Both the position numbers and the translations under genes were made by a program. This document shows, piece by piece, positions 4,346 to 59,423 of a DNA stretch of 64,000 bases. The stretch's first letter is position 1, and the number at the start of each line of letters is the position of its first letter. A model generated the notes under the pieces. The model was not told the DNA's origin and ran no database searches. It worked only from the letters and a program-made list of their open reading frames with translations. Source of the DNA: a virus; IMG/VR virus record IMGVR_UViG_3300042197_000820, positions 1 through 64,000 of that record; one strand, given 5' to 3'.

Positions 4346-7300
4346 CTATGAAGCGAGACACTTCCAGTATTTATCGATACGTCCGCGAGTCGAGAAACCC
4401 CATTCATCATTGTAATCTGGCTTGACTAGATAAGGCTTGTTTACCTCTAGACGATCACCCATGTCCATGCTAATGCCCCAGCAACGGATTGTCAAGATAG
4501 CAGAGTTGGAATCTACAACTTCTACTTGGAAGTATTCCTTACCATTGGCTGTACGTTTAGCGATAACCTTGCGAGGAATACACCAAGTTAGCTGCAATGC
4601 TGGCTCAAACTCAGAAATCGGTGGAATCATCTTCTCTTCTAGCATTTCTAGTGTCTTATTAGACACAACCTTGGAGATTGGGAACTCACCGGTTAGTTCA
4701 GTAAGGAACTGAATCTCTTCTTCCGGCGTGAAGTCTCCTTCCGGTGCATAAAGAGCGATGTTCTCTTCCAAGTTCTTTGGCTTCCTAGGGCGATCAACCG
4801 CAATCGAAGACCAAAAATGCTTCTTACCCGTGAATCGACTATCAACTAGCGTGTTCATGGCACCAGAACGTACCAGAACATCCAAAGTCTTCTTATTTAG
4901 CTTCGAATAACGCATGTTTTCGTTGAAAAGAAACTCTTCGACTGTCCTAAAAGGTCGTCCCTTAAAGATTTCATCGATTGCCGACTCTCCAAGACCCTTG
5001 ATAGAAGTCAAAGGCTGGATAAGACTAGAACTATCATCAGAAATCTCCCAATAAACACCGGATGTATTGATGTTTAGTGGTTCAATACCATACCCGAAAG
5101 ACTTAGCAATCGAAATAGCCTTCTCCTTTTTGGTTTCTGGCTCTTTGTCGAGGAATGCAGCAAGCCATTCAGCCTCAAAGTAAGTCAAAAGCCAAGCACA
5201 TTGGTAAGAAATGATTGAGTAGCAGACAGCGTGAGACTTATTGAAGCCATAACCAGAGAAGAACTTGAACTTTTCCCACAGGTCATTAGCAGCCTTGCTT
5301 GTCATACCCTTCTCGACACAACCCTCAATGAAGCGGTCATAAAGAGACTGAAGAACCTTATCAGTCTTACCAGTACCCTTCTTGGTTAGAACCTTACGGA
5401 GACTGTTACCTTCGTCAAGAGTGATGTTCTTACCAAGCTTGTGAGCCAGCAATGCAATCTGCTCTTGGAAGATTAGGAATCCATACGTTTCTTGGGTAAT
5501 GTTCTTGTATTCAGCATTTGGATAATCGATTAGAAGTGGTGCTTCCTTGGCATCGATGTAATCCTTATCAACTCCTGCCGACAATGGACCGGGACGGTAG
5601 ATAGAAGTAATGGCAGAAAGATCGATGATGTTCTCTGGTCTTGCTTGCTTACAGAGCTTTTGAACTCCATTCTCTGTAAACTGGAATACACCAGCCCACT
5701 TGCCATTCTGGAATACATTCTTGTATACCTTCTTATCGTTCAAGTCCAAAACGTCAGGATGCAGCCTCTCATCGTAGTACTTACGAATGTCTGCGTATGT
5801 TGGGTTCTTGACTCCATGATGCCTCTTCAAGATGTGACGGATTGCACCCTCAATCATTCGAAGAGTTGAAAGACCAAGAATGTCGAACTTGATGAATCCC
5901 AAAGGTTCAAGGTGGCGAACGTTTTGTCCTTCCGACCAAGGGGTTTGGCGAACATTCTTAGAGGAGATAAGAGGCATGTACTTGTCCAAATCCTCTGCGA
6001 CAACAACGCCGCCAGCATGACGAGAACAAGAACGAACTTGACCATACAAAGCATCGATGTGATTTGCAACATCAGGGTACTTTGACAAGAATGCTTGCAA
6101 TGTTGGCGAATACTCCTTTACTTCTTCAAAAGTAGGAGTGTAAACACCAGCCTTCATACCAAGCTTCTGCTTTGCAATCGGAGTTGCTTCTGCCATCATT
6201 CGACCAGTGACCTTATTGACCTCTGTGAACGGAATGTTGTAAAGCTTGGAAATGTCCTTGATAAGAGACTTTAGTTGAAGTGTGTTCCAGTTTGAGATTG
6301 GAACAACCGTATTGTCTCCCCACTTTCCAATCAAGACATCCTTGATAACCATTGGATCAGCAACGTCAAAGTCAATGTCGGGATAATCTGTTGCGTCTGC
6401 ACGGAGAAAGCGTGAGAATAGCAAATCATACTTGATTGGATCAACTTGCGTGATTTCCAAAGCGTAAGCGACCAGCGAACCAGCAGCAGAACCGCGACCG
6501 GGACCAGTAAGCATGTGTTCGTTAGAAATAGCAGCAATCTGATTCATTGTGAGGAAGTACTTGGAGAATCCACGATCTGCGATAACAGACAACTCATAAC
6601 GGAGCCTTTCAACGTATTCCGCATTGGTATGAAGATTCTTCTTGCGAAGTCCTTCCATAGAGAACTTTTCCAAGGCAGTATCAGCAGTCTCGCCAGCAGG
6701 AACAACGAAGTCAGGAAGTCGAACAGTTGTATCCGGTTCGAACCTTTCGATGCGGTTCATTGCAATGTTGTGAGTTTCAGTGATAGAGTTCAGAACAAGA
6801 TCATCATCGTATTCTACACCACATAGCTCAGAATACTTCTTGTAAGAAGCCCACATTTGGTCGCCATTCTTTGGGTATAGCTCATAGCCAATCTCATCGA
6901 CATTTGCAGGTAGTTCGCTCTCATTTGCCCAATCAGGACGACCCGTTCCAAGCCAGCCAAGACGCTTGTAAAGCTCACGATCCTTCCAAGCAGTTGGGTT
7001 AGGATAGTGCGAATCAGCCGTAGAAACAAGCTTGATTCCGAACTCTTGTTGGATTTGGATTACATACTGATTCAGAAGATGCTGCTCGGGAATGTTGTTC
7101 CATTGCAGTTCACCATACCACCGATCTCCAAAAATGGAAACCATGTTTCGGGTGACTTCTCGCATAGCCTCTAGAACAGCCTCAGAGCCTTTCTCGCGAT
7201 TCTCCCAAAAGCACCCAGCGTAGACCCCACCCAAGCACGCCGACGACGCAATAAGCCCCTCAGAGTGTTCACGGAGCATGTCATAATCGACGCGAGGATA

Positions 7301-7795
7301 GCGGTAGTAGTTCTCTTCGCGGTAGGAATCAGAAACCAGTTTGAACAGATTGTTCAGACCGGTTTGGTTTTGAGCGAGCAACACCAAATGCCGACGACGA
7401 GAAAGAATGCTGTTCGAAGCTTTCTTCGTTTCTGCTTCGTTTTCGATTGTCGTGCCGGAAGTCTCATCTTCTGCAACCTTGGAAGCTTCCTTCTTATCTT
7501 CCATAGTCTTGTCGTATTCCTTGCGCCATTCCTTGATAGAAGGCACAAAGTAGGCTTCACAGCCAAAGATTGGCTTGAAGTCCTTGCCATTCTCATTCAT
7601 CTTTCGGGCGTGCAGAACTTGCCACGAAAATCCGTTCATATTTCCGTGGTCCGTCAAAGCCAACGCATTCATGCCGTTGGAATAAGCAAAGTCCATGTGG
7701 TCTTGTGGGTATCCAAGACCATCGAAGATGGAGCCTGCTACGCTGTGGGCATGAAGCCCAACAAACGGAATGTTACTTTCAACGCGATCAGACAT
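4346..7795 (-). CDS. dnaE: DNA polymerase III alpha subunit (family C, DnaE type)
   Basis: Replicative DNA polymerase of bacterial type, 1149 aa. The N-terminal PHP domain shows H15-A-H17 and a DHGNMNG loop near 47-53. The palm carries GPGRGSAAGS and the catalytic acidic pair in YPDIDFD near residue 473, with the third Asp in KFDILGL near 637. Later come YRPGPLSAG and GYGFNKSHAVCYS, and the C-terminus has an OB-like segment (LTWCIPRKV onward). The start has a near-perfect AAGGAGGTG site. There is no separate clamp or loader in the window. T4-type phages normally use a family B enzyme, so this is a replacement of the core polymerase. It is the last gene of the long operon starting near 13.0 kb. 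Confidence 0.95.
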   Translation of the reverse strand: MSDRVESNIPFVGLHAHSVAGSIFDGLGYPQDHMDFAYSNGMNALALTDHGNMNGFSWQVLHARKMNENGKDFKPIFGCEAYFVPSIKEWRKEYDKTMEDKKEASKVAEDETSGTTIENEAETKKASNSILSRRRHLVLLAQNQTGLNNLFKLVSDSYREENYYRYPRVDYDMLREHSEGLIASSACLGGVYAGCFWENREKGSEAVLEAMREVTRNMVSIFGDRWYGELQWNNIPEQHLLNQYVIQIQQEFGIKLVSTADSHYPNPTAWKDRELYKRLGWLGTGRPDWANESELPANVDEIGYELYPKNGDQMWASYKKYSELCGVEYDDDLVLNSITETHNIAMNRIERFEPDTTVRLPDFVVPAGETADTALEKFSMEGLRKKNLHTNAEYVERLRYELSVIADRGFSKYFLTMNQIAAISNEHMLTGPGRGSAAGSLVAYALEITQVDPIKYDLLFSRFLRADATDYPDIDFDVADPMVIKDVLIGKWGDNTVVPISNWNTLQLKSLIKDISKLYNIPFTEVNKVTGRMMAEATPIAKQKLGMKAGVYTPTFEEVKEYSPTLQAFLSKYPDVANHIDALYGQVRSCSRHAGGVVVAEDLDKYMPLISSKNVRQTPWSEGQNVRHLEPLGFIKFDILGLSTLRMIEGAIRHILKRHHGVKNPTYADIRKYYDERLHPDVLDLNDKKVYKNVFQNGKWAGVFQFTENGVQKLCKQARPENIIDLSAITSIYRPGPLSAGVDKDYIDAKEAPLLIDYPNAEYKNITQETYGFLIFQEQIALLAHKLGKNITLDEGNSLRKVLTKKGTGKTDKVLQSLYDRFIEGCVEKGMTSKAANDLWEKFKFFSGYGFNKSHAVCYSIISYQCAWLLTYFEAEWLAAFLDKEPETKKEKAISIAKSFGYGIEPLNINTSGVYWEISDDSSSLIQPLTSIKGLGESAIDEIFKGRPFRTVEEFLFNENMRYSKLNKKTLDVLVRSGAMNTLVDSRFTGKKHFWSSIAVDRPRKPKNLEENIALYAPEGDFTPEEEIQFLTELTGEFPISKVVSNKTLEMLEEKMIPPISEFEPALQLTWCIPRKVIAKRTANGKEYFQVEVVDSNSAILTIRCWGISMDMGDRLEVNKPYLVKPDYNDEWGFSTRGRIDKYWKCLAS

Positions 7796-13026: not shown

Positions 13027-13055
13027 ATTATAACCGTTGGGGGTAAGCGCGTCAA
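13027..13055 (-). promoter_or_regulatory. Near-consensus sigma70 promoter
   Basis: Coding-sense TTGACG (13050-13055), 17-base spacer, TATAAT (13027-13032). It is one of the best matches in the window, 20 bases upstream of the start at 13007. It should drive the gap-free operon of about fourteen genes ending in dnaE. Confidence 0.85.
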
Positions 13056-13074: not shown

Positions 13075-13614
13075 TTAGACTTTAGCTCTTTGCTGAATAA
13101 GGTAGATGAAAGTCTCAATATCGTTAGCATGAGCGGCGAGCATGTCATTCACGCCAAGAGGAAGTTCACCAGCTTCTTCTAGTTGGTCGAAAACATCGGT
13201 CATTAGCTGGTGATGGTCTTTGAGCATTTGTAGGCCAGTTTGTACAATAACTTCTGCATTCGCGTTAGCAGGGCTTTCATATGATTGGATTACTTCCATA
13301 GCCTTCTTAGTATTGCAAGAAGGGCAACCCATCATTTCATCGCCGCTATTACCAATAGCCTTCTCAACGGCTTCGTCATACTGTCCTTCTAAGGCACCGT
13401 AAATCTCGCCAAATAGATTTGGATGATCGCCAGAAAAACCAACACCCTTTGCCACATTGTGCGCGCCGTGGAACCAAAGTTGATTACCACGAATAGAGCC
13501 AATGTATTGGCCCATTAGATCCCTGAATAGTGAAGAAGCTTGTGGTTGTTTAGAGAGAACTACTGCTACTTCTTCTAGGATAATCTTCTTTAGTTGGGCT
13601 TTTGTAAGTTTCAT
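13075..13614 (-). CDS. Dps/ferritin-like protein with predicted capsid-targeting N-terminus
   Basis: The core (about 25-179) resembles Dps: WFHGAHNVAKGVGF with H52, then H64 twelve residues later as in Dps, then D80-x3-E84 (YDEAVEKAI) matching the ferroxidase D-x3-E. A third His-rich helix (KDHHQLM) and a final helix complete a four-helix plan. C97-x2-C100 sits in an inserted loop. Dps proteins oxidise Fe(II) and shield DNA. Residues 1-16 (MKLTKAQLKKIILEEV) precede the fold and match the N-termini of the proteins at 47826-48410 and 58884-59423; I12-L13-E14 and L13-E14-E15 fit the prohead-protease rule. The gene has its own late-type motif and a terminator upstream. Packaging in the virion is inference. 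Confidence 0.75.
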   Translation of the reverse strand: MKLTKAQLKKIILEEVAVVLSKQPQASSLFRDLMGQYIGSIRGNQLWFHGAHNVAKGVGFSGDHPNLFGEIYGALEGQYDEAVEKAIGNSGDEMMGCPSCNTKKAMEVIQSYESPANANAEVIVQTGLQMLKDHHQLMTDVFDQLEEAGELPLGVNDMLAAHANDIETFIYLIQQRAKV

Positions 13615-13633
13615 TTATTTCCCCTTAACACAA

Positions 13634-13642
13634 ATAAATAGT
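13634..13642 (-). promoter_or_regulatory. ACTATTTAT motif, putative late promoter of the Dps-like gene
   Basis: Coding sense GGACTATTTATTTGTG, 20 bases upstream of the Dps-like start. It is the only such site between 4.3 and 19.9 kb, a region otherwise served by sigma70-like promoters. Confidence 0.55.
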
Positions 13643-37275: not shown

Positions 37276-37284
37276 ATAAATAGT
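37276..37284 (-). promoter_or_regulatory. ACTATTTAT motif, putative late promoter of the sheath gene
   Basis: Coding sense CTAACTATTTATTTATG, 28 bases upstream of the sheath start at 37248. Confidence 0.55.
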
Positions 37285-40659: not shown

Positions 40660-42393
40660 TCAGAGACCACCTTCTCCGAGAAGGCCACGGACGACAACAA
40701 GGCCGTACATGTCTGGGCGAACCATCTTCTTGGCGTAGCGGGTCATGACACCCTTGCGAGGCACAAAGTCCTCAGTACCAAAGATGGTAGGAGTGACTTG
40801 TAGTGGGACGTAAGGAGCATAGACGAAGCCGCTCTCTAGGAAGCTACCACCACGGCGACCGACCAATAGGAGGTTGCGTGGGAAGTATGGATCAACGTGA
40901 ACGTCGAACTTCTTGGAGAGTGAACCGACCTTGACTGCGCCGATTGAACCACGCTCATCGTCAGCGGTGACGGAGGCACGGAAGCCAGCGGTGAACTCCA
41001 GGATGTTGGCAACTTCTGGCGATGTTACGACGAAGTTAGCGCCACCACGAAGGGTCTTGCGATGGATTTGAGCCGAAACGTCATTGATTGTTTCGATGAG
41101 GGTTTCGTACCACATTGATACGTTACCAGTGAACTCTGGAGCAGCAGCCTGTGCGCCAACTTCGACACCAGTTGTACGGTTGACAAAGAGACCTGGGGAA
41201 CGTGACCAGTAGAATGTACCGGCTGTAGCGCCCTTGATCAAGTCCTCAAGGATTTCGCGGTCGATTTCGAGAGCGATTTGTTCAGAGAGGATTGAGGTCA
41301 ACTCGACTTCGGCATCAAGGTTGTGGTAAGCGTTGAGATCTTGTCCCAACTCTGGGGTCCACTTGGCCTTGAGCTTCTTGGTGACGGCGGTAACAGCAAT
41401 CGAATCAACTTTGATGTCAATTTCTGGGATGTCTGTTGCACCTTCAAGGCCCCAACCGGGAGAAGCAGTTGTACCAACAACTGAACCGAGTGTTAAGCTT
41501 GAGGTAAAGTTATCTTTAACAGCCATCTTTAGGGTTCCAACACCGTCTAGAACTGCTGCTAGTTGAGCAGCGGTTTCTGTACCGGTAGCTGCGACAGTCA
41601 AAATGATCTTTGTAGAATCATTTGGATCGATACGAGTTAGGCGGCGAACAAGTGAACCACTTGACAATGAACTGGTTACCGAAAGAGTAACAAGATTCTT
41701 TAGACCACCAACTGCTTCTACTGCGCTAACTGGAATGGTTGCAACAGCGAACTTAGAACCAGACACCAAATCTGCGTCGAAACGTAGCAACGATGCAGCA
41801 CCATATCCGCTTGTATAACCAGCGTCAACGACTGCATAGCCGCTATCTCCAACAGCACCAGAAGCTACAAGTGTAGTAACTGCTGTAACTGAAGCAGTTG
41901 CAGAGGCATAGCCATTGTTAAGGGCATATGGACCTTCTTCGGCTGAACCAGCTTGTGTTAGGTTGACACCACCAGTGATTTGGCTGGCAACAACGTTACC
42001 ACCGTATAGTGACTCACCAGAAGTGTATCCAAGACGGGAACCTGTTTCATTCGAAACGGTAAAGTCGAGGAAGAAAATGAGACCTGATGGAAGGCTCATT
42101 GGTTGTACTGAAACGAGATCATTGGCCAATAGGCCAGCGAAAACGCGGCGAACTAGTGGGAACGCAACAGCGGCAAAGCCCTGTACGTCACCAGCAGCCA
42201 TTGATGTAGACTCCTTGAGGAGTTGCTTAGCTTGATTTTCTAGAAGACGAGCCATACCAGCACGGGTATGTTCGCCGCTGAGTCCTTCAAGAAGACCTGT
42301 CTTCTCCCATTTTGAGAGCAGAGCAGCACCTTCTTTCTGGAGGTCGCGGTTAACGACGCCTTCAGTCAATCTTTCAATAAGATTACGAGACAT
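40660..42393 (-). CDS. Major capsid protein (gp23-like)
   Basis: A HK97-fold capsid subunit, 577 aa from ATG 42393 (MSRNLIERLTEG), chosen because GGGGGTGATAAAT precedes it. The N-terminal 61 residues are charged and helical and end L59-K60-E61, a prohead-protease site at nearly the same place as in T4 gp23 (E65). MAAGDVQGFAAVAFPLVRRVF follows, the standard start of the mature chain. The rest shows the T4-type plan, including TPELGQDLNAYHNLDAE and VGRRGGSFLESGFVYAPYVPL near the C-terminus. Confidence 0.94.
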   Translation of the reverse strand: MSRNLIERLTEGVVNRDLQKEGAALLSKWEKTGLLEGLSGEHTRAGMARLLENQAKQLLKESTSMAAGDVQGFAAVAFPLVRRVFAGLLANDLVSVQPMSLPSGLIFFLDFTVSNETGSRLGYTSGESLYGGNVVASQITGGVNLTQAGSAEEGPYALNNGYASATASVTAVTTLVASGAVGDSGYAVVDAGYTSGYGAASLLRFDADLVSGSKFAVATIPVSAVEAVGGLKNLVTLSVTSSLSSGSLVRRLTRIDPNDSTKIILTVAATGTETAAQLAAVLDGVGTLKMAVKDNFTSSLTLGSVVGTTASPGWGLEGATDIPEIDIKVDSIAVTAVTKKLKAKWTPELGQDLNAYHNLDAEVELTSILSEQIALEIDREILEDLIKGATAGTFYWSRSPGLFVNRTTGVEVGAQAAAPEFTGNVSMWYETLIETINDVSAQIHRKTLRGGANFVVTSPEVANILEFTAGFRASVTADDERGSIGAVKVGSLSKKFDVHVDPYFPRNLLLVGRRGGSFLESGFVYAPYVPLQVTPTIFGTEDFVPRKGVMTRYAKKMVRPDMYGLVVVRGLLGEGGL

Positions 42394-42425
42394 ATTTATC
42401 ACCCCCTTTATTTTTAGGATTTGCT

Positions 42426-43592
42426 TTACTTAATGCCAGCTAGCTTTTTCCAATAATCGAGTTGACTATGATCAACACTTTCATTTAGGTTACGCTTGCT
42501 GGGAATGGTGTGAGAAGGTCTATTGATAGCTTCGTGAAGGGACTCAAGTTTCCTGCCGGTAGACGTTGCTCCAGCAGCCGCTGCACTTTGAAGGGTTTCA
42601 AAGATAACCTTCGCTTCTGTAATGTTTTGAGCCTTGCGAATAGATTCGACAACCTTTTGTTTTTGTCGCTCATTCAACGAGCTATTCATAAGAACTTCAT
42701 TTTGGTACAGAAGTTTTGCATTGCTAAGGTTGACTTCTTCAAGTTTGGCCTTCAATGCGGAAACTGTTTCATTAAGAACGGTATTCTGTGATTTTAACGA
42801 TTCGTTAACTCCAGCCAGTTTCTTCATACCGTCTTGCAAGTCTTTTAGTTCTTGCTGACGCTTGGTATCGGCCAAACGAGCAAGATTGACTTTCTCTTGT
42901 TCTTGACGATAAACTTCAGGACGACCGGCCCAACCGCCGCCGCGCCCATCCATTATATCGACAACTAGTTCTTCTACGAGTGTGTGAAGGTCTTCCTCGA
43001 CAGCTTCATCCTCGTCTACTACTTCCTCTTCTATTTCATAAGATTCTTCTAGATCTTCTTCGTCCAAAGATTCTGGATGCTCCATTTCGTTCATAAAACG
43101 ACGAACTTCTTCCATAAGGCCAGTCATTTCTGGTGATACAGCGGGAGCTTGTGCCTTCTCTACAGAGCCAAGATCAAACTCGATTTCTTCTGGTTCCTCA
43201 TTTTCACCAGTGTCTATCTCATCATCAGCTAAAACATCAAATGGATCCTTTAGATCTTGTGGAGCAATGTCCTGATCTTCGTAAGCCGACAACATTGTGC
43301 GAAGATCGTCCATCGATACAGTGATAACGTCTTCATCACCACCGGCTTGTGGCTCATTTGCTGTATCAAGTGTGGCAGCATCTGGAATGTCTTCTGGAAT
43401 AGCCTCTGGTGCAGGAGCAGCAGCACCAGCAGCCATAGGGTCTGCGGCTGGTTCTTGCTCGTTGAGGAAAGAATCAATAGCTTCTTTCAGTTCGCTAGCG
43501 TGCTTCTCAATAACTTGATTTTCTGCAAATCTAAGCGCGGCCTCGCGAAGCTCTTTTGCGTCGATAATGGCTTGTTCCAAAAGTGATGACAT
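42426..43592 (-). CDS. Prohead scaffold/core protein (gp22-like)
   Basis: A 388-aa, highly acidic internal scaffold. The first 230 residues are rich in Glu, Asp, Ala and Pro, followed by a coiled coil (about 230-300) and a conserved C-terminal NEVLMNSSLNERQKQKVVES typical of T4-type gp22. The last residues YWKKLAGIK are echoed at the end of the 762-aa internal protein. It is normally degraded by the prohead protease during maturation. Directly upstream of the capsid gene, as in T4. Confidence 0.88.
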   Translation of the reverse strand: MSSLLEQAIIDAKELREAALRFAENQVIEKHASELKEAIDSFLNEQEPAADPMAAGAAAPAPEAIPEDIPDAATLDTANEPQAGGDEDVITVSMDDLRTMLSAYEDQDIAPQDLKDPFDVLADDEIDTGENEEPEEIEFDLGSVEKAQAPAVSPEMTGLMEEVRRFMNEMEHPESLDEEDLEESYEIEEEVVDEDEAVEEDLHTLVEELVVDIMDGRGGGWAGRPEVYRQEQEKVNLARLADTKRQQELKDLQDGMKKLAGVNESLKSQNTVLNETVSALKAKLEEVNLSNAKLLYQNEVLMNSSLNERQKQKVVESIRKAQNITEAKVIFETLQSAAAAGATSTGRKLESLHEAINRPSHTIPSKRNLNESVDHSQLDYWKKLAGIK

Positions 43593-44761: not shown

Positions 44762-47050
44762 TCAACCTCTCAAAACTGTCTTGATACCGGCCAAAACAGA
44801 CCAGCGATTTAGTTCAACGGTTTCGCGCATCACAACACCGGCATCATCTAGGTAATCACTCAAGTAATCACTGATGGTCTCCATAGCATCGCGGATAATC
44901 TCAGGATCGATTGGCTGTTCACCATGAGCAGTATGACCTGTTTCTAGAATGTCGCGAAGGTCAGAAATAAAGAACTTATCTGTTGCTAGTTCTTTAGCCT
45001 TTGGTTGGTTCCTGAACTCTTTCTCGAAATCAACCTTGCCTTGCTTCATCTTTAGATAAAGTTCTTTACGTTGGTCAGTCGTCATCTTGAAGAAATCAAA
45101 CTTAGAACGTTCTCTCTGTGGATCTTCGGGAAGCCTCATTAGTAAGGCTTTCTCTTCTGGCGACAGAGCAGCAATGAACTCATCTGGCTTATCGAATAGT
45201 TGCTTGCGGCTGAACCTTAGAGTCTTACCGTCTTTGACTACTGTTGTATCTGAGCCAAACTCGATTACCATACGAGCAATCTTACCTCTGTTGTCACCGG
45301 GACCGGCAACATCTCGGTCCATTGCTGGACCGACTCTACCGGCTGCATCCATTGCAGCGCGAGCAGCGCGTTCGCCACCACCAGTTCTTGTTGTATCTGA
45401 TCTTTCTGCTGGGATAGCATCGGCAACGTTGCGTGGCTTTTCTTTCTTCTTCTTTTTCTTCTTTTTCTCAAGAAGATTTGCAATGTCGAATCCTTCTTTG
45501 ACTACGAAGCCTTTGTTCTCAAGTTCCTGCTTGATACGATTCGTAACGTCTTTGACAGCCCAACTTGGTAATCCCACATCACCACCCATCAGCTTATCGA
45601 CTAGATTCATGTCTTTTTTGCCTCTACCGATAAACTTATGTGGTCCCTTTCTGAAGATGTGGATTACTTCTCCATCACCACCAGACTTTTTGCCTCCACC
45701 GTCACCACCATCACCGCCGTCAGTAGGACCGGATCCGTCACCGTCTGTATCTGGAAGCTTTTTCTTGACTTTTGATGGATCTACGTCTTCCATTCTTTGC
45801 AGTAAACCGTCAAGTGTTGCTAGACGAGAATACTTCTGTCCATGCTTTCTTAGGAAGTATACTGCTGCACCTGAAGTTACCAAAGCAACTCCAACTGCTG
45901 GTAGAAGTACCGAAGCTGCTCCTAGTGCTTTAGCACCAATCATGGCTCCAATACCTGTTAGAGCAGTTCTCTTGAAGCGATGGCCGATGGTTTTAACAAC
46001 GGTTGTGGTGATGGTATCTGTAATATTAACCATCTTTTTGGGATCTACATCCCAAGGGATTTCTTTTCTTCCTTTGGCACCAAAAATCTTGGCCAACGAT
46101 TGTGAAGGGTCTTGTTGGAAGTTCTTCCAGTTATCTAACCACACAGATTGGTCCATTGCATCTCCTCTTCCAAGAGTGGCCAAGTCTTCATCGGTTAGTC
46201 CAAACTCCTTCATATCACTTAGAAGTTCTGATAGTGGAGTATTTGGCTTATAATGTTTTGCATCTCCGAAGAAGAACCTACCAAGTGCTTGTGTTGGACC
46301 TTCGCCGGGTTGAACCTGCAAAGTACGATTCAGACTTTGCTTGAACTCTTCTATAACAGATTGACGCATATCAATAATGTTGGTCTTCATGACTAGATTA
46401 TAGAACCAATCTGTATGCATCAACACACCGGCTACAATACCAGCTAGACCAGAAAGACCGAGCAGTTTTGGAGCCAAGGTAGAGCGAAGCTCTTCCATTG
46501 ACATGGTTTTCTTATCACCAGCTAGTGGACCAGTCTCTTCTGCTGGAACATCACCTTCTGCCTCGGACAATCTCTTGTATACACTCTCTAGTTCATAATC
46601 CATGTAATATTGCATCATCTTACGAAGATCTTTAATCATTTCGTTTGCAATAGCAGGATCTGTCTCGCCAGCTTCTGCGCTAGCAACTATACTATCATAA
46701 ATCTTGCCGATTTCCATTGTTTGTGCAAGGAACTCATCAGCACTCTTTTGATTAGGATATCCAGAAGCCTTCAAAGTTTTGCTAAGTTCAGAGAAAGCCT
46801 TATTAGAGGCTGCATCTGCTCTATCGATAATGGCTTGGATTTGCTTTTCCGCTGCATCACGCTTAGAACTTGGAAGCATCTTCCTGAGTGATGTTAGCTT
46901 AGCAAGACCATGCTTGATCGAATCCCAAACTCCTTCATCTACACGACCAGTATAAATCTTTTGTTTTACTGCCTTTTCTAGTAAGAAGTTTAGTTCTTTC
47001 TTGTATCTCGTCTCAAGTATAAGACGCTTTGATTCGGAAATCCTATTCAT
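44762..47050 (-). CDS. Large internal head protein candidate, 762 aa
   Basis: Encoded between protease and scaffold and coupled (ATGA) to the protease. N-terminal 180 residues are helical with basic patches. Two hydrophobic segments follow, LLGLSGLAGIVAGVL (about 197-212) and a long one near 370-400 (ALGAASVLLPAVGVALVTS). Then come an Asp/Gly linker (DGDGSGPTDGGDGGDGG), an eight-lysine run near 520-528 and a folded C-terminal third. The end RWSVLAGIK resembles the scaffold end. Such a protein could be packaged and ejected to help DNA cross the inner membrane. No known family identified. Confidence 0.65.
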   Translation of the reverse strand: MNRISESKRLILETRYKKELNFLLEKAVKQKIYTGRVDEGVWDSIKHGLAKLTSLRKMLPSSKRDAAEKQIQAIIDRADAASNKAFSELSKTLKASGYPNQKSADEFLAQTMEIGKIYDSIVASAEAGETDPAIANEMIKDLRKMMQYYMDYELESVYKRLSEAEGDVPAEETGPLAGDKKTMSMEELRSTLAPKLLGLSGLAGIVAGVLMHTDWFYNLVMKTNIIDMRQSVIEEFKQSLNRTLQVQPGEGPTQALGRFFFGDAKHYKPNTPLSELLSDMKEFGLTDEDLATLGRGDAMDQSVWLDNWKNFQQDPSQSLAKIFGAKGRKEIPWDVDPKKMVNITDTITTTVVKTIGHRFKRTALTGIGAMIGAKALGAASVLLPAVGVALVTSGAAVYFLRKHGQKYSRLATLDGLLQRMEDVDPSKVKKKLPDTDGDGSGPTDGGDGGDGGGKKSGGDGEVIHIFRKGPHKFIGRGKKDMNLVDKLMGGDVGLPSWAVKDVTNRIKQELENKGFVVKEGFDIANLLEKKKKKKKKEKPRNVADAIPAERSDTTRTGGGERAARAAMDAAGRVGPAMDRDVAGPGDNRGKIARMVIEFGSDTTVVKDGKTLRFSRKQLFDKPDEFIAALSPEEKALLMRLPEDPQRERSKFDFFKMTTDQRKELYLKMKQGKVDFEKEFRNQPKAKELATDKFFISDLRDILETGHTAHGEQPIDPEIIRDAMETISDYLSDYLDDAGVVMRETVELNRWSVLAGIKTVLRG
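45443..45476. repeat. Homopurine/homopyrimidine run encoding polylysine
   Basis: In the coding strand a run of only A and G (AAG/AAA codons) encodes eight Lys in a row plus flanking Glu/Lys in the 762-aa protein. Such runs can be slippery for polymerase or ribosome. Confidence 0.6.
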
Positions 47051-47655
47051 TTTTTGCTCCCCAATAAATCATCCAACATGGAATCAATAGTAATTAGTTT
47101 ATTTGTGTTTCTTCTGCCTTCATACATCACATTATCCATGAAGGCTTTTGGTGTAGAAGGTTCAGATACAATGTCAAAACAAATAAGCTGAAAGTCGTCT
47201 TCTACGATTGTCTGGCCACCGCGATTAGACACGGAACCTAGACCGCGTGAAGAAATACCAATCTTGACACCATCGTTGACCAAGGCTCTGAGGGTCTGAC
47301 CGGATGGAGTAGAGAGAACCTTTACTTTACCCATAAGTGTTTTACCATCCCACCACATGTCTGTAACCATGTGCGAAGAGTTGCGAAGATTGACAACCGA
47401 ATCATCTGGGTGGTCCAGTTCTCCGACAGCACGGCGATCACGAACAACATCCATGTAGCTATCCACTTCTCTTTTTAGAATAGGGAATGGGTAGACACGA
47501 CCATTTCCGTTTAGTCTTTCTGCTTCGTGGCATTTGCCGACAAGATAAAGAGCTTTACCATCTGCCATTTGTCTTTTCTCGGATTCGGTGAGAACGTCGA
47601 GACACATCCCATCGGGACAAAGTTCATAGAACTCTTTTAGTATTTGTTTTGCCAT
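47047..47655 (-). CDS. Prohead protease (gp21-like)
   Basis: A serine protease of the T4 gp21/HK97-protease fold, 202 aa. Catalytic candidates are H82 in GELDHPDD and S135 or S136 in GISSRGLGSV, the two family hallmarks; LVGKCHEAERLNGNGRVYP near the N-terminus is also typical. It cleaves after Glu in L/I-x-E sites of scaffold, capsid and internal proteins; such sites are visible in the capsid protein and the MKL-type proteins. It has its own late-type motif and follows a terminator. Confidence 0.92.
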   Translation of the reverse strand: MAKQILKEFYELCPDGMCLDVLTESEKRQMADGKALYLVGKCHEAERLNGNGRVYPFPILKREVDSYMDVVRDRRAVGELDHPDDSVVNLRNSSHMVTDMWWDGKTLMGKVKVLSTPSGQTLRALVNDGVKIGISSRGLGSVSNRGGQTIVEDDFQLICFDIVSEPSTPKAFMDNVMYEGRRNTNKLITIDSMLDDLLGSKK

Positions 47656-47825: not shown

Positions 47826-48410
47826 TCACCTCCTTCTCTTGGATTCTTGTGTAATGCGGCGAACGATTGATTCTGCGATCTCTTCTTGGACATTAGCAAC
47901 CGGACCCTTCTCCCTAGCGAACTTAGAAGTAGAACGCGCCTCTCTAGTTGCTGCTCTTGCTTCCTTAGACAGTTCGGCTAGTTGGGCGGCAAAAGCAGTT
48001 AGCAAATCTGCAAACTGTTTGTTACCCTGAGCGCGGCTAGCATAACCGGCTAGTTCTCTTGTGGTATTCGTAGCAACTTTAACCGTCTTAGCTACGTCTG
48101 CTTTAAGCGAACCCATAGCAGCGGCATCGAGGACTTCACCACCTGCTTTTCCAAGCTTGTCAAGACCGGCAGCGGCGGCTTTACCGAAAGCCTCGTTTCC
48201 TCGTTCAATAGCCGAGATACCACGATTTAGTGCGCCATATGCTTTATCTCCAACAGCACCGGCTGCTCGTCCAACAGCACCGGCTGCTTTCCCGGCGACA
48301 CCAGCTAATCCTCTAGCCGCGCCTCCGATAGCACCAAAAAGTCCTTCTTCAATAGCAGTCTGTACTTCTTCAGCAATGATTGCCTTTAGTTGTGCTTCAG
48401 TGAGTTTCAT
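47826..48410 (-). CDS. Ala/Gly-rich internal head protein with MKL-type capsid-targeting N-terminus
   Basis: A 194-aa protein beginning MKLTEAQLKAIIAEEV, the same N-terminus as the Dps-like protein and the protein at 58884-59423, with I12-A13-E14 as predicted protease site. The body is amphipathic and Ala/Gly-rich (GAIGGAARGLAGVAGKAAGA onward), then a helical region ending RRITQESKRRR. Composition resembles proteins that insert into membranes or coat DNA. It is adjacent to the protease. Packaging and ejection are inferred. Confidence 0.65.
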   Translation of the reverse strand: MKLTEAQLKAIIAEEVQTAIEEGLFGAIGGAARGLAGVAGKAAGAVGRAAGAVGDKAYGALNRGISAIERGNEAFGKAAAAGLDKLGKAGGEVLDAAAMGSLKADVAKTVKVATNTTRELAGYASRAQGNKQFADLLTAFAAQLAELSKEARAATREARSTSKFAREKGPVANVQEEIAESIVRRITQESKRRR

Positions 48411-49298: not shown

Positions 49299-50106
49299 TC
49301 TCAGTGATCTCCTGTGCCAAAGCTTGCAACTTTAAGACTTTCTCTAGTACTTGCTCGTTGATTGGAGTTTTCCTAAACGACTCGATTAGCTGCATAACAG
49401 AGTTTAGTTTTTGAGTGATGTTTGGATCACCACCATTATAAGTAGTTATGGCTTCTTTTATTCTATGGATCTCATCGTTCAGACACATCTGAAACTGCAA
49501 ACCGCCGTCAGAGATTGACATAACATAACTTTCGATAAGCTTGCGTTGTGATTCATTTAGTGATTGATTGTACTTGGTATTGAAGTTTTGGACAACTGTG
49601 CGATAGACCAAGTTATCAATAGGTTGCATCTCTGACTTCTTTTGTTGAGTTGGACGCTCGACCAACGTACCGATCAGCTTTCTCTCAAGAAGAACTTTTT
49701 GTTTTACGTCTGTATCCCCACCAAAAATCTGTGAGATTGTGGCAAGTGTCTTGTAGTTTGGAACAAACGTATCGAATGCATCTTGACCAATAGTTTTGTT
49801 GATCCAGTTAATCACTTTTGTTTGCTCGTTGAACAGTTCCTTTTCATCAAGTTTCTGATAAGCATTATAACTTTCTTGGATTAGCCTTGATGCTGTAAAT
49901 GAATCTAAGCTATTTGTCTCGTACAGGTTCTTGTATAGAGCCAGTTCATTTGCTAATGGTTTTCCTGCTCTAAAGAAAGCCGAAAAGACTTCTTTGAGTT
50001 GGGTTATCATTGATTTGTTCTGTTGTAATGAAGCAATAGCAAGTTGCTTTACAAGTAACTCATAAAGAAAAGCGGTGTTTCTTTTCTTATTGTGGCGCAA
50101 TCTCAT
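49282..50106 (-). CDS. Hypothetical head-module protein, 274 aa
   Basis: Almost entirely helical, with a basic N-terminus MRLRHNKKRNTAFLYELLVKQ that also appears in other large phages next to the portal gene (impression, not searched). It is coupled to the portal by a four-base overlap. A core or chaperone role in assembly is possible. Confidence 0.6.
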   Translation of the reverse strand: MRLRHNKKRNTAFLYELLVKQLAIASLQQNKSMITQLKEVFSAFFRAGKPLANELALYKNLYETNSLDSFTASRLIQESYNAYQKLDEKELFNEQTKVINWINKTIGQDAFDTFVPNYKTLATISQIFGGDTDVKQKVLLERKLIGTLVERPTQQKKSEMQPIDNLVYRTVVQNFNTKYNQSLNESQRKLIESYVMSISDGGLQFQMCLNDEIHRIKEAITTYNGGDPNITQKLNSVMQLIESFRKTPINEQVLEKVLKLQALAQEITENGNND

Positions 50107-52130
50107 TTCTTTTTCTCCAATGATTCTAATAGACGATTGACTTCTTTTTGGGTTCGGAAGACTTCAGCTTCTTCTTCTAAATAAGTAGTTGTTGAGCCTT
50201 CATAGATTTTAGCAGAAGCTAAACCAGATAGTTCTTTTCTACCGGGATTCATAGTTCTTGCTGTGATCCCTAAAGCTGCTTCTGGGAATGCTACGGATGT
50301 GCGGTTTTTCTGTCTTGCAACAGAACCCTTATTTCTACCACCCGGTTTCTGACCGTAGTAGTAGGATTTTCCGCTTGGCCCACGACGGAGGTATTCTTTA
50401 CGCCCGTGGAGGCCGACTCTATAGGCCCCTTCTTCGTCTTCCTGTAATGGGGCTTCCCCACCGGGGGCACCACCGGGAGCAGCGAGAAGAGGTTCTTCGG
50501 CACCAGCTTCTTCAGGTGCGGGTGCTTCTGCGGCGGCTTCAGGAGCGGCCTCGGCACCAGCCTCGGCACCAGCTTCCGCTCCCAAATCTCCAAGGCCACC
50601 ACCAGCTTCTCCACCAAGCTCGCCTCCAAGACCAGCACCTAGACCACCGCCGCCACCGAGACCAGCAGCCTCTTCTTGCATCTTCTCAGCGACAGCGTTG
50701 ATCTGTGCGTCGAACTTGCGATCATAGAAGATCTCGCGTTGATTGCGAAGGAACTCTTCTTCTGACATGTTGAACAGCTTCTCAGCAATCCAACGGCGTG
50801 AGAAGTAGCCTTCGGTTGCTTTGCTAGCAACGTCAAACTTGCTTGACCAGTGTTCTAGTTCTTGCATTTCTGCAATCTTGGATGGATTATTTAGGCTAAG
50901 AGAGAAGTTGAGTAGATCATCCCCTCTGTAGCCAATAGTATAAAGATGGATAATACCAATCTTTTCTAGTTCTGATACGACAATCCTTTGTAGTCTTTGG
51001 ATTGTTCTAGCAAAGCGAATGTCTTTTTGAGCTAGCGTAGTCTTATCTTCTTCTGCACCTTCTGCTCTTGAGATGTAAGAAGCTGGAATCTTGAGGGCAG
51101 AGAACAACTTGTCGCGAAGATACTTAACGTCATCAATGTCACCAGTGAAAGTACCACCAGCCAAAGAAGTGATTTCTGTTGCTGAGCCACCACGAACAGG
51201 AATATAGTAATCCTCTTCTACCGAAAGTGGATTGTAACGAAGATCGACGCGGCCTGTGGTATCGTCCAAGATAGTGTTACGCTTCATTGAAGTAATAACC
51301 TTTTGAACATATTGTTCTACTTCGTTTGGAGGAATACCACCAACGTCAATCTTGAATACACGACGTTCTGGGGCACGAACAATACGGTAAGCCATCATAG
51401 CATCTTCTAGAAGTGTTAGCTGACGCCAAATACGACGAGCAGCTTCTAGGACTGATGTACCATAAGGAGCGTACTTGTCATTTCCAAGAATGCGGAAGTG
51501 AGCGACCTGCCAGTTTTCGAATGTCATACCAGCAGAGTTCCATTGGAACTGAACGTAGTTTGGGTTTGTTTTGTCTTCACCTTCTAATCTTTCTACTTCT
51601 TGTGGAGGCAGACCGATTGCGCTTGTGATACCTTGGTGATCATCGATATCGAGGTATAGAAAGAAATCGCCATACTTGCACATTGTACGGCACCAACCAA
51701 AAAGATTGAAGTTGGCATTTAGCACATTATGGTAGAGAGATTGTAAAACCCCTTTGATTTCTTCGTTGCGGCACTTGATGTTCAACATTGGTTGCAGAGC
51801 AGAGTGTGTTGTCATTTCGTCTGCATAGATGTCAAGTGCAGATGCAATCTCAGGTGTGTATTCCATTTGATCAAAGTCAACATAACGCTCTGAGCGATTA
51901 TGGTTGATCATGATAGCATTCTGCATATTTGAGAATGCGTATAGTTGTGAACGCTTGAACTGCTGTCCCGAAGCTGATCGGAACTGCGATGCGTACTTGT
52001 CCATCAAGGAACGACGCAATCTTCTAGTCGATTGTGTACGATAGTTTACGAGAGGACCAGAGAATAATCTTGTTAATCTCTGGAATAGTTCTGATCCCGG
52101 ATCTCTTGGGTTTTTGTCTTGCTTTGCCAT
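50103..52130 (-). CDS. Portal protein (gp20-like)
   Basis: A 675-aa dodecameric portal subunit at the packaging vertex. The body matches the T4-type portal: MNHNRSERYVDFDQMEYTPE-like N-terminal region, YGTSVLEAARRIWRQLTLLEDAMM, RAPERRVFKIDVG, YIPVRGG and EGAEEDKTTLAQKDIRFARTI. The C-terminal 170 residues are unusual: an Ala/Gly/Glu/Pro-rich low-complexity linker (about 500-570) followed by a short basic domain (GAYRVGLHGRKEYLRRG). Next to the terminase, as expected. Confidence 0.92.
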   Translation of the reverse strand: MAKQDKNPRDPGSELFQRLTRLFSGPLVNYRTQSTRRLRRSLMDKYASQFRSASGQQFKRSQLYAFSNMQNAIMINHNRSERYVDFDQMEYTPEIASALDIYADEMTTHSALQPMLNIKCRNEEIKGVLQSLYHNVLNANFNLFGWCRTMCKYGDFFLYLDIDDHQGITSAIGLPPQEVERLEGEDKTNPNYVQFQWNSAGMTFENWQVAHFRILGNDKYAPYGTSVLEAARRIWRQLTLLEDAMMAYRIVRAPERRVFKIDVGGIPPNEVEQYVQKVITSMKRNTILDDTTGRVDLRYNPLSVEEDYYIPVRGGSATEITSLAGGTFTGDIDDVKYLRDKLFSALKIPASYISRAEGAEEDKTTLAQKDIRFARTIQRLQRIVVSELEKIGIIHLYTIGYRGDDLLNFSLSLNNPSKIAEMQELEHWSSKFDVASKATEGYFSRRWIAEKLFNMSEEEFLRNQREIFYDRKFDAQINAVAEKMQEEAAGLGGGGGLGAGLGGELGGEAGGGLGDLGAEAGAEAGAEAAPEAAAEAPAPEEAGAEEPLLAAPGGAPGGEAPLQEDEEGAYRVGLHGRKEYLRRGPSGKSYYYGQKPGGRNKGSVARQKNRTSVAFPEAALGITARTMNPGRKELSGLASAKIYEGSTTTYLEEEAEVFRTQKEVNRLLESLEKKK

Positions 52131-55695: not shown

Positions 55696-55704
55696 ATAAA
55701 TAGT
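55696..55704 (-). promoter_or_regulatory. ACTATTTAT motif, putative late promoter of lysis and terminase genes
   Basis: Coding sense TGACTATTTATATTAGAGG, 15 bases before the holin start. It follows the recombination gene directly, separating early and late transcription units. Confidence 0.55.
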
Positions 55705-58700
55705 CATTGATTTACGAAAGCAAAACCGTCTTTATTGCCGATTTCTATAGTCATATCGACCACATCTTTCAAACTGTCCAAGTGGGAGATAACTAGAATA
55801 GTTTTGAACTGAGTCTTCAGAAGATCTAATAGTTGTGTGAATGTTTGCAAGTGGTTCTCGTCCAATGCGGTACCCGGCTCATCGAGAATCATGATGTCCG
55901 ACTTTGGAAGATTAGAAACTTGCAGTAGAGCCAATCGGATAGCCATAGCAGCCATAGTCTTTTCGGCACCGGAAGCCATAGAGAGAGGACGAGGATCTTG
56001 ATCAATGTGCTTGATCATGATATCTAGCTTATCACCCTCTTCTTCGAAGAACACGTTAAACTCAGTCAAGTTAGAAAGAATCTTGGTTATTTCTTCGTTG
56101 ATGATTGGAAGCTGCTTCTTGATAATGTCATATGCGATACCATTCGAATGCATACACCGCATGAATAGTTCATAAGCACTAAACTCTGTCCTAAGTGCGT
56201 GAAGTTCATCTTTCTGGTTTGTGAGCATTTCTAGCTTTTGTTCAGCGGATCCAATCTTGCGGTGAATAAGAGTCAAACGATCAGTACAATCATTTAGAGA
56301 CTTCTTAGCATCTTTATGAGCAATCTTAAGTCGGTTGAGAGTAACCAATAATCCTTGAGCATTCTTGATTTGCTCCTTTGTTTGTTCATAAAGAAGTTCT
56401 TTCTCTCGCAACGACTCTAGATCAGCGTTGACCTTTCGTAACTCAAACTGACCGCGTTCAACATGGAAATCTAGATTCTTGATCTCACCAAGAAGCTGTT
56501 CTTTCTTGGCCACAATCGAAGTGTACTTTTCCAAATCGGCTTGGATAGAATCTGGCTTTGCCTCTGCGATCTTTTCTTGTAGAGAGGTAGCTTGTTCTGA
56601 CTTCATTTGTATAGATTCAGATGCTTCAGTCGCATCACGAATAAACTTACACTTTGGGAACTGCGTACCGCAGGGAATCCCATCTAATAGAGAAGTCTTA
56701 CTAGAAGCTAGCTTGATTTCCCTTTCGATTGTAGTTAGTTGTTCTTGAAGAACTTTGACGTTTTCTCTGCGAACAATCAGTCCTTGGTAATCATAAGACT
56801 CTAAGAATGTATGAATCTTTTCCAATAGTGCAAGATTATCAGCGATCTTAGTCTGATTCTCCATAATCTGTCCGTCTGTTGTGAGGGCTAGTAGCGAATA
56901 CTTAGAAATAAGGTTGCGTAGCTCAGCACCGTCGATGACTTCAGTGGAAGAAGCCTTGATTTGCTCTTCAACCGCCTTTATCTCAGTTTCTATCTCCAGA
57001 ACTCTTTGTTCCAACAACTTGCATTTCTCAAGCATAACTGTTAGCTCAGCTTCGCTATCAGAAAGTTCGGAATGCGCTACTGCAATCTCAGAGTCGAAGT
57101 TTCTCCCCTCTAGACGACGTAAGGCACCCTTAAGATCAGAGCTATCGTCTTTTGCTAACCTAAACTTCTTTTCGAAGATTTCTAGATCCAAGAACTTTGC
57201 AATGATTTCCTTTCTCTTGGTGCTTCCTTCCCTCACAAATGCTAGACCATCTAGCTGGCTAGACATAGAAGTGTTTAGGAAGTCATCGATTGTTCCGAAA
57301 ACACGACGAATATTATGGTCTGTTTCGACACGCGAAACTCCATTCATAGATTCCTTGGTATCAGAAATAGTGCATTCCTTTACGAAGTCAAGTTCTACTT
57401 TAGCTTCCTCAACAACTTCAGTTTTTGTCTTCTTCTTGTACTTTGTAAGGCTTCTTTCAATCGAGAAGATATCAGTATTGACTGCAATCTTGACCAAGCA
57501 GGAAGCTGAAAGCTTCTGCTGGTTAATCACATTAATGTTCTTCCTTTCGTTTTTGGAAGTTGTGTTGAAGATAGTGAATAGCAAGGAATCGATAATGCTT
57601 GACTTACCTGAGAAGTTCTTGCCGAAAATACCGACAATACCAGACAGACTTTCAAAATCAATCCGATTCTTCTCACCATAGTTGAACAGATTATCCCATT
57701 CAAGAGACTTGATTTGCCAGTTGATGTTACGACCAACTTCTTCTGTCTCTTCGACAATAGCTGAATACTTCTTGTTCAGTTCTAGAACCTTTTGGATAAC
57801 TTCTTCGGTACACTCGTAATCCTTTAGATATTCACGAATGAACTTTTCTAAGATTGCAGGATCACGAAGATTCTCTTTAGGAACATTTGTGATAGCTGTG
57901 GAACCCAATCCTCGCTTGTTATCCGCACGGGACAGAAAGGTAACAGATTCTGGACTAAACTTATGCTTTGCTAACTCCACAGCACGACTCATCTGCTGCA
58001 CCGTGAGATTGTAGTCAGAAGCTAATCTTACTCTAGCTCCGTTCGGAACGTTTGTATTCTTTGGTAGTTGACCGGTAGAAGTAAGATTGATTGTGACAAA
58101 CGGCTTTGGATTTGCAACTTGGATGTGGCTGCAATCAAAATCGTCTTTGCCACGAATATCCCAAAGCAAATAGCCCTTATCGTTTGTCTCGCCAAAGTTC
58201 TGCTGAATAGTGGAACCGGGGTAGCGCACGCGGCCCGCTGTATCCACTATTTGATTGGTCTTGTGAATATCACCAAGAAAAGCGAAATCGTGATCACTAA
58301 AAATATCGATACCATGATCTCCTCCTTGCATCGTCCAACCAATGTCGGTCTGGACTCCACCGATAGCACCGTGATAGAGGGCAATGTTGATCTTCGATGG
58401 ATCACTTGGTTTTACCCACTTATCTTCATCAAATACCGAAAGAACATTCAGCGTAACTAGTTCATTCAGTTGTACTTCGCCCGAGTTCTTCAGAAGATGA
58501 AGATTAGAATGCCCCAATGCCTGGGCGATGGGAGTAATCGCATCTTGACGGTTTGAGTTTTTTAGATTACCATCGTGGTTTCCGAGGATTACATACGTTG
58601 GTGCAATGTCGGCTAGATTAGAAAGGAAATCACTAGCCAACTCAAAAAACTCTGGTGATAACTGCGTCTTAGTATGCGCGATATCACCACAATGTACAAT

Positions 58701-58820
58701 GTAATCTACTTTCTGTTCTTTTAGTTTCGAGTACAGATCTTGGAATGCTGCCTTATACTCAAAATGATACTTATAGTTTCGGATGTGGGTATCCGAAATG
58801 TGGGCAATACGAACGCTCAC
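55704..58820 (-). CDS. Fused Mre11/SbcD nuclease and Rad50/SbcC ATPase (gp47-gp46 fusion)
   Basis: One 1038-aa chain. N-terminal nuclease: D10-T-H12, HCGDIAH (43-49), GNHD (80-83) and later YHG and GDIH motifs of metallophosphoesterases. From about 370 an ABC ATPase begins (WQIKSLEWDNLFNYG) with Walker A GIFGKNFSGKSS near 400. Long coiled coils surround a possible hook CGTQFPKC near 715 (C-x6-C rather than C-x2-C). Signature SMASGAEKT is near 948 and Walker B MILDEPGTALDE near 977. In T4 and cells the two activities are separate proteins. It resects ends for recombination-dependent replication. GTG start with TGGAG. Confidence 0.92.
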   Translation of the reverse strand: MSVRIAHISDTHIRNYKYHFEYKAAFQDLYSKLKEQKVDYIVHCGDIAHTKTQLSPEFFELASDFLSNLADIAPTYVILGNHDGNLKNSNRQDAITPIAQALGHSNLHLLKNSGEVQLNELVTLNVLSVFDEDKWVKPSDPSKINIALYHGAIGGVQTDIGWTMQGGDHGIDIFSDHDFAFLGDIHKTNQIVDTAGRVRYPGSTIQQNFGETNDKGYLLWDIRGKDDFDCSHIQVANPKPFVTINLTSTGQLPKNTNVPNGARVRLASDYNLTVQQMSRAVELAKHKFSPESVTFLSRADNKRGLGSTAITNVPKENLRDPAILEKFIREYLKDYECTEEVIQKVLELNKKYSAIVEETEEVGRNINWQIKSLEWDNLFNYGEKNRIDFESLSGIVGIFGKNFSGKSSIIDSLLFTIFNTTSKNERKNINVINQQKLSASCLVKIAVNTDIFSIERSLTKYKKKTKTEVVEEAKVELDFVKECTISDTKESMNGVSRVETDHNIRRVFGTIDDFLNTSMSSQLDGLAFVREGSTKRKEIIAKFLDLEIFEKKFRLAKDDSSDLKGALRRLEGRNFDSEIAVAHSELSDSEAELTVMLEKCKLLEQRVLEIETEIKAVEEQIKASSTEVIDGAELRNLISKYSLLALTTDGQIMENQTKIADNLALLEKIHTFLESYDYQGLIVRRENVKVLQEQLTTIEREIKLASSKTSLLDGIPCGTQFPKCKFIRDATEASESIQMKSEQATSLQEKIAEAKPDSIQADLEKYTSIVAKKEQLLGEIKNLDFHVERGQFELRKVNADLESLREKELLYEQTKEQIKNAQGLLVTLNRLKIAHKDAKKSLNDCTDRLTLIHRKIGSAEQKLEMLTNQKDELHALRTEFSAYELFMRCMHSNGIAYDIIKKQLPIINEEITKILSNLTEFNVFFEEEGDKLDIMIKHIDQDPRPLSMASGAEKTMAAMAIRLALLQVSNLPKSDIMILDEPGTALDENHLQTFTQLLDLLKTQFKTILVISHLDSLKDVVDMTIEIGNKDGFAFVNQ

Positions 58821-58883: not shown

Positions 58884-59423
58884 TCACTTAGCGCGACGAG
58901 CCTTACTAGCTTCTATGGCACCGATCTGGGCTAAGGCTTTCTTTTTGCTTGGATGAGACCCAAGCTTTTTCTTTCCTTCCGAATCGTATACGTTCCACTC
59001 ATCGTCTTCGTGTTTTAGCATTTCGTCCAACTCGATTTCGATAGCCCCAGCGTGGCCACCGGCATCACGTTTAGCTAACTCAATACGGTCAGATAGATAA
59101 TGTTTGACTGTACTGAGATAGTCCGAAGCTTTTGCAATCTTAGACTGAATCCAAGCAGGGAGTTGGTCAGTATTCTTCAGCATATCGGTAAGGTCGCAAG
59201 CATACCTAGAAGCTTTGAGAAGTTCCAAACGAGCCATTTCTCCTTCATAATCTGGATCTCCAAGCATGTCGGGTGGAGGCAGTTCTTCACCGTGGTAGTT
59301 CACAAGCTCGACACTTTCCGGTTCTTGTGTGACTTCCATACCCATTTCATCCATGACTTCTTGCAAAGTAGGACCAAGCTCTTCTAACATTAGCTTTTTG
59401 AGCTTTTCATTTGATAACTTCAT
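58884..59423 (-). CDS. MKL-type capsid-targeted protein, 179 aa
   Basis: Begins MKLSNEKLKKLMLEEL, aligning residue for residue with the N-termini at 13075-13614 and 47826-48410; L13-E14-E15 fits the prohead protease. The body has an acidic N-terminal linker, then DQLPAWIQSKIAKASDYLSTVKHYL, a helical pair, and a C-terminal basic segment (WNVYDSEGKKKLGSHPSKKK onward). Function unknown. It has its own late-type motif, set between primase and the recombination gene, so late expression apart from neighbours is likely. Virion packaging is inferred. Confidence 0.65.
   Translation of the reverse strand: MKLSNEKLKKLMLEELGPTLQEVMDEMGMEVTQEPESVELVNYHGEELPPPDMLGDPDYEGEMARLELLKASRYACDLTDMLKNTDQLPAWIQSKIAKASDYLSTVKHYLSDRIELAKRDAGGHAGAIEIELDEMLKHEDDEWNVYDSEGKKKLGSHPSKKKALAQIGAIEASKARRAK

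Follow-up and report, generated by a model that had tools for sequence, protein, structure and literature searches.

A Dps-superfamily protein of an uncultured T4-type phage carries a modular leader that may target it to the prohead

The locus analysed here raises the question of why a gene for a Dps-type mini-ferritin in an uncultured phage should begin with a short leader found on otherwise unrelated proteins, and whether its product works in the virion or in the infected cell. It lies in a window of 64,000 nucleotides, positions 1 to 64,000 of an uncultured bacterial virus record (IMG/VR IMGVR_UViG_3300042197_000820) of 128,019 bases, the minus strand of which holds all major genes seen. 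The initial annotation had read the protein as a DNA-protecting ferritin loaded into the capsid. The gene is made up as follows.

13075–13614, minus strand: gene of the Dps-superfamily protein with N-terminal leader, ATG start, 179 amino acids
13567–13614, minus strand: leader codons 1–16, MKLTKAQLKKIILEEV; a separate helix (residues 5–21) in the AlphaFold2 model
13078–13533, minus strand: Dps core, about residues 28–179, with the helices and H52, H64, D80 and E84

By predicted fold and by motif, the window protein is a member of the Dps superfamily (mini-ferritins). No Pfam family matched it above the family's cut-off, and a single-sequence search gave phrog_3636, annotated as 'DNA binding protein' (E=5e-5), followed by weaker matches to phrog_858 (E=0.008) and Mycobacterium smegmatis Dps (E=0.3). 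A profile built from the family alignment of 32 relatives matched 24 PDB entries, of which 23 are Dps proteins or Dps-like mini-ferritins; these matches, with E-values from 0.0023 for the best to 2.5, are individually weak and mutually consistent. The AlphaFold2 model (pLDDT 91.4, pTM 0.80) places helices at residues 28–54, 64–90, 98–109, 120–147 and 155–177, with the leader helix apart from them, and the short BC helix (98–109) between helices B and C is of the Dps type. The structural comparison with Dps has now been run: the best 50 Foldseek matches in the PDB were all Dps (probability 1.00, TM-score by target up to 0.80, best E 0.002), and the best viral match of the model in BFVD was to a phage protein that carries a Dps annotation (E=4.5e-6, 29% identity). 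Profile, model and motif spacing therefore agree on the ferritin-like core that the initial annotation had proposed. The landmarks it had picked out, H52, H64 and D80-x3-E84, are shared without exception by the 32 relatives, even where these are only 32–45% identical to the window protein, and the spacing of these residues matches that of H51, H63, D78 and E82 of Escherichia coli Dps, except for one residue inserted between H64 and D80. Four of the five classical ligands are thus invariant, whereas the equivalent of E. coli D67 is a variable position near residue 69; H49, D63, D157 and R176 are unusual invariant residues of the alignment. Compared with bacterial Dps (M. smegmatis Dps, Bacillus anthracis Dlp-2, E. 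coli Dps), the protein has the same four-helix bundle with a BC helix, but it is only about 15% identical to them, does not conserve D67, adds the invariant H49 and D63, and has a leader helix where the bacterial proteins have a free tail. Iron chemistry (ferroxidase activity) and DNA protection would be its predicted activities. As a separate observation, two BFVD entries named 'Prohead protease' in the database (A0A6J7XDU5 and A0A6J7WPK9) match the model along some 155 residues, an indication that Dps domains are fused to prohead proteases in some uncultured phages.

The leader was said at the outset to start two unrelated proteins as well, and so it does, more loosely in the latter of the two genes listed here: it is shared with the former (MKLTEAQLKAIIAEEV) and recurs in a looser version on the latter (MKLSNEKLKKLMLEEL).

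47826–48410, minus strand: unrelated 194-amino-acid protein with the same leader, between the portal and prohead protease genes; site I20-E-E22 followed by G23
58884–59423, minus strand: unrelated 179-amino-acid protein with a related leader; site L20-Q-E22 followed by V23

The family consensus is M-K-[LI]-T-x-x-Q-L-[KR]-x-I-I-x-E-E, and in the window Dps the leader would form an amphipathic helix. Scanning IMG/VR with a degenerate DNA pattern of the leader returned at least 119 stretches, where a hand estimate based on codon degeneracy puts the chance expectation at far less than one; a looser protein pattern yielded, among the matches listed, 276 distinct leader proteins with about 250 unrelated bodies. 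Single loci held as many as seven exact DNA matches, again among the matches listed. The same pattern occurred in only nine stretches, from five metagenome-assembled genomes, among 84,980 species genomes, and two of these five also hold a gp21-type protease; because of this scarcity the leader looks phage-specific. A tblastn search of 50,697 annotated phage records with the window Dps and with single and joined leaders as queries found no leader-bearing isolate; the matches of PA5oct type were discarded as weak chance matches to a gene that has no leader. When 101 leader proteins were scanned with PHROG and Pfam, hardly any could be given a function, and no match was to a family of annotated internal virion proteins.

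Leader-bearing relatives of the Dps were found in other phages, where the initial annotation had suggested looking, and two of them indicate that the leader is a module. In loci L020 and L022 the Dps genes do not differ by a single nucleotide between about codon 24 and the stop codon, while the leaders are about 60% and the upstream DNA about 35% identical, with the motif kept in both; on sequence evidence, the leader has been swapped on an identical core. In a tree of the Dps proteins the group with N-terminal leaders is separate from a group with C-terminal fusions (rows in neither group were left uncounted, and the long branch of L025 is placed unsurely). Leader genes are also 7.7 times denser beside Dps genes (0.17 per kb) than elsewhere in the same loci (0.023 per kb), and they adjoin untagged Dps genes too (L008, L040–L043). 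In three loci (L037:7549–8436, L043:7955–8767 and L044:6482–7366) no stop codon separates the Dps frame from that of a leader-type protein, an arrangement that may represent fusions or internal starts, and in L047:6279–6800 the Dps frame ends in a short leader-type tail. Many remoter Dps relatives lack a leader, and the fold therefore does not require packaging.

Judging by the following genes of the window, the genome that encodes the Dps also specifies T4-type head assembly and has a gp21-type protease.

40660–42402, minus strand: gp23-type major capsid protein (phrog_138, E=7.5e-68)
42426–43592, minus strand: scaffold-like protein ending YWKKLAGIK, assigned by position and C-terminal motif, with no strong family match
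47047–47655, minus strand: gp21-type prohead (head maturation) protease (phrog_207, E=2.5e-54)
50103–52130, minus strand: gp20-type portal protein (phrog_213, E=1.9e-74)

The phrog_207 protease is present in 33 of 50 records with a leader or Dps gene, and in 22 of the 24 that reach 100 kb, compared with none of 26 random large viral contigs (P=3e-9). These control contigs, drawn with a random 14-base pattern since a 17-base pattern gave none, are on average smaller than the leader/Dps records, which weakens the contrast without removing it. Leader genes are not clustered near the protease gene (P=0.25). The T4 prohead protease prefers the site [LI]-x-E. Such a site lies at positions 19/20 in 108 of 250 leader proteins (43%; counted over the roughly 250 leader proteins among the matches listed), as against 2.2% in equal windows elsewhere (P about 5e-97), and the residue after it is A, G or S in 58 of 121 cases near these positions versus 47 of 254 elsewhere (P about 8e-9). 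T4-type prohead proteases cleave after Glu, and T4 leaders are 10–20 residues long (PMC5694885). The window Dps itself reads LSK at residues 20–22, without the canonical LxE, the sole remaining fit being I12-L13-E14 followed by E15, and the Dps relatives with a leader that were inspected visually also lack the canonical site. Removal of the leader from the window Dps is possible.

A further line of evidence comes from Dps genes that lie among head genes. In loci L033 and L035 the Dps gene follows scaffold-like and capsid genes and precedes what reads as a putative tail tube gene, and the N-termini of its products are RWQQLAGILKE or RLQKLAGI...LTES. The motif W-x-x-LAG[IL] is the C-terminus of scaffold-like proteins in several loci, that of the window at 42426–43592 included, and the N-terminus of several unrelated proteins in L034 and L035. 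LxE stands behind the motif in all eight N-terminal cases, for some far behind, and is followed by G or S in seven; random control open reading frames gave one N-terminal match, without the site, and no C-terminal match. We regard W-x-x-LAG[IL] as probably a second prohead tag, and no other independent line of evidence speaks as strongly for packaging as this placing of another prohead-type tag on the same fold, amid head genes. No protease match was found in the record with the LAGI-tagged Dps, a 67-kb fragment. The motif was also seen at the C-termini of head proteins other than the scaffold-like ones, as in the protein encoded at 44762–47050 of the window.

How the Dps gene is expressed bears on the same question. 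Its surroundings, together with a related site upstream of the second leader gene, are as follows.

13634–13642, minus strand: late-promoter-type motif ACTATTTAT, 19 nt before the Dps start codon
13641–13671, minus strand: terminator-like hairpin with a 14-bp stem, between the ribonucleotide reductase gene and the Dps gene
13027–13055, minus strand: sigma70-like promoter TTGACG-17-TATAAT (11 of 12, a consensus match only), for the gene after Dps
59466–59474, minus strand: near-match of the late motif, ACTATTTAC, with one mismatch, before the leader gene 58884–59423

The late-type motif noted in the initial annotation is real and common to head and tail genes: the 128-kb genome has 19 copies of ACTAYTTAT, each of them on the coding strand, against an expectation of 3.0 under an order-2 Markov model and a maximum of eight in 60 simulations, and the motif precedes the genes for the protease, scaffold, sheath and baseplate and others, as well as that for Dps (sites of this kind lie, for instance, at 37284, 43635 and 47687 of the window). 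It is a clear candidate for the late promoter of this phage, unlike the T4 motif TATAAATA. A terminator belonging to the Dps gene itself, as first annotated, was not borne out, for the hairpin (13671–13641) sits upstream, is conserved in L002, L006 and L015–L017, and probably ends the ribonucleotide reductase transcript. Early replication genes had been placed on both sides; they are present upstream, where genes for a class II-type ribonucleotide reductase, a DnaB-type helicase and an exonuclease were found, whereas directly downstream there are small genes, most of them without an assigned function. Given the late motif, the hairpin upstream and the sigma70-like promoter downstream, the Dps gene looks like a late single-gene unit amid early genes.

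Predicted targeting of the Dps to the prohead is well supported by these comparisons. In the mechanism that we consider likely, the Dps would be a late product of a T4-type myovirus, the amphipathic helix of its N-terminal leader would dock it onto the prohead core, and it would be enclosed in the head with the DNA, like the internal proteins of T4, where it would most probably limit iron and peroxide damage to packaged or freshly delivered DNA. The original suggestion of a capsid-loaded ferritin is thus favoured by the fold, the late motif, the T4-type head system and the modular leader, but not by the residues at the usual cut site. An assembled Dps dodecamer is about 9 nm across and a T4-type portal channel about 3–4 nm, so that the protein could reach the host only as disassembled subunits; protection of packaged DNA is the simpler reading. 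The T4 internal proteins (IPI–III and Alt) similarly share a short N-terminal leader on otherwise unrelated bodies, in a genome with T4-type head genes and a gp21-type protease, and [LI]xE often stands behind the leader here. The present leader differs in its length of 15–22 residues, as against about 10, and its QLxxIIxEE motif, in serving far more cargo types, a ferritin fold among them, and in that its cleavage is putative; inspection of about 250 leaders by eye revealed no match to the T4 CTS beyond M-K and an acidic end. The T4 targeting sequence is able to bring foreign proteins, for example GFP, into the head (PMC3012670, PMC9958956).

An alternative places the action of the Dps in the infected cell instead of the virion, as a late auxiliary protein that binds iron and lessens oxidative damage to replicating phage DNA, with the leader serving in partner or membrane binding or similar. 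The Dps proteins of Lactobacillus phages and of Gratiaviridae are read as acting in this way (PMC6669764, PMC8008677), and the many remoter relatives without a leader and the missing cut site of the window Dps are in agreement with such a role. We nevertheless consider it unlikely, as the leader occurs on about 250 unrelated bodies (among the matches listed), one of them in the head cassette, is strongly linked to a gp21-type protease and is followed by a gp21-type site, and as the second lineage has a different tag and is placed among head genes.

A related possibility agrees with prohead targeting on packaging and differs on function: the Dps fold would be a mere building block, a core component or scaffold helper of the prohead that is packaged, and perhaps later degraded, without iron chemistry. 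The leader and the LAGI tags would fit core assembly, and the missing fifth metal ligand and the unusual invariants H49, D63, D157 and R176 suggest a changed function; however, H52, H64, D80 and E84 have stayed invariant at identities as low as 32–45%, and this reading too appears improbable. DNA binding by Dps often depends on a basic N-terminal tail, and the lysines K2, K5, K9 and K10 of the leader might be taken for such a tail, as at the N-terminus of E. coli Dps, and not for a targeting signal. The conserved L8, I11, I12, E14 and E15 are unlike a basic tail, though, and the leader is found on hundreds of non-Dps proteins, which makes this explanation very improbable.

Dps proteins of phages and targeting of the T4 type are each known, and their combination appears to be new. 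In the open-access literature, to which our search was confined, there was no report of the leader sequence, of Dps in phage heads or of a targeted Dps, and nothing relevant on phage Dps as an auxiliary metabolic gene. The Dps proteins of L. plantarum myophages, Gratiaviridae and uncultured Caudovirales (e.g. A0A6J5RS28) likewise represent a Dps fold from tailed phages; the accessible parts of PMC6669764 and PMC8008677 describe for theirs no targeting leader and no late or head association, unlike what is found for the window Dps. Encapsulins are cellular and without a genome, and their cargo, which includes ferritin-like proteins, carries C-terminal targeting peptides. They have shells of the phage-capsid (HK97) fold that enclose cargo by dedicated loading (PMC8346489). 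Here, in contrast, the shell would be a DNA-containing infectious virion.

A broader proposition could as easily fail as hold: that environmental T4-type phages load many different proteins into their heads through a large new leader system, that ferritin recurs among these proteins and has been tagged in two or more lineages independently, and that the virion brings along a protein of its own for handling iron and protecting DNA. If this holds, ferritin would be a component of the virions of widespread aquatic phages, and packaged Dps the phage counterpart of encapsulated ferritins; this would bear on the survival of phage DNA under oxidative stress outside the cell and on the continuing debate over iron in phage particles, known as the 'Ferrojan Horse' debate. 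The leader alone would offer a sequence test that predicts which internal proteins hundreds of uncultured T4-type phages carry, nearly all of these proteins lacking an annotation.

Some further observations concern the remaining leader proteins and genes of the window. Two adjacent leader genes directly precede the prohead protease gene in two loci (L162:297–1510 and L129:4786), and appear to encode a polynucleotide kinase/AAA-like protein and a tRNA-ligase-type phosphodiesterase-like protein, possibly packaged tRNA- or end-repair enzymes. The LPxW-SKI domain of the protein encoded at 58884–59423 is found in cyanophages, e.g. in Synechococcus phage S-WAM2 (AOV61865.1), behind the N-terminus MKTFKQLREE, which is reminiscent of a T4 leader. 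Elsewhere in the window, 55704–58820 encodes an SbcD-type nuclease and an SbcC-type SMC ATPase fused in one protein of 1038 amino acids, and the first residues of the products of 489–1532 and 4346–7795 look, on reading the sequence, like an IMP dehydrogenase and a PHP/DnaE-type DNA polymerase, respectively.
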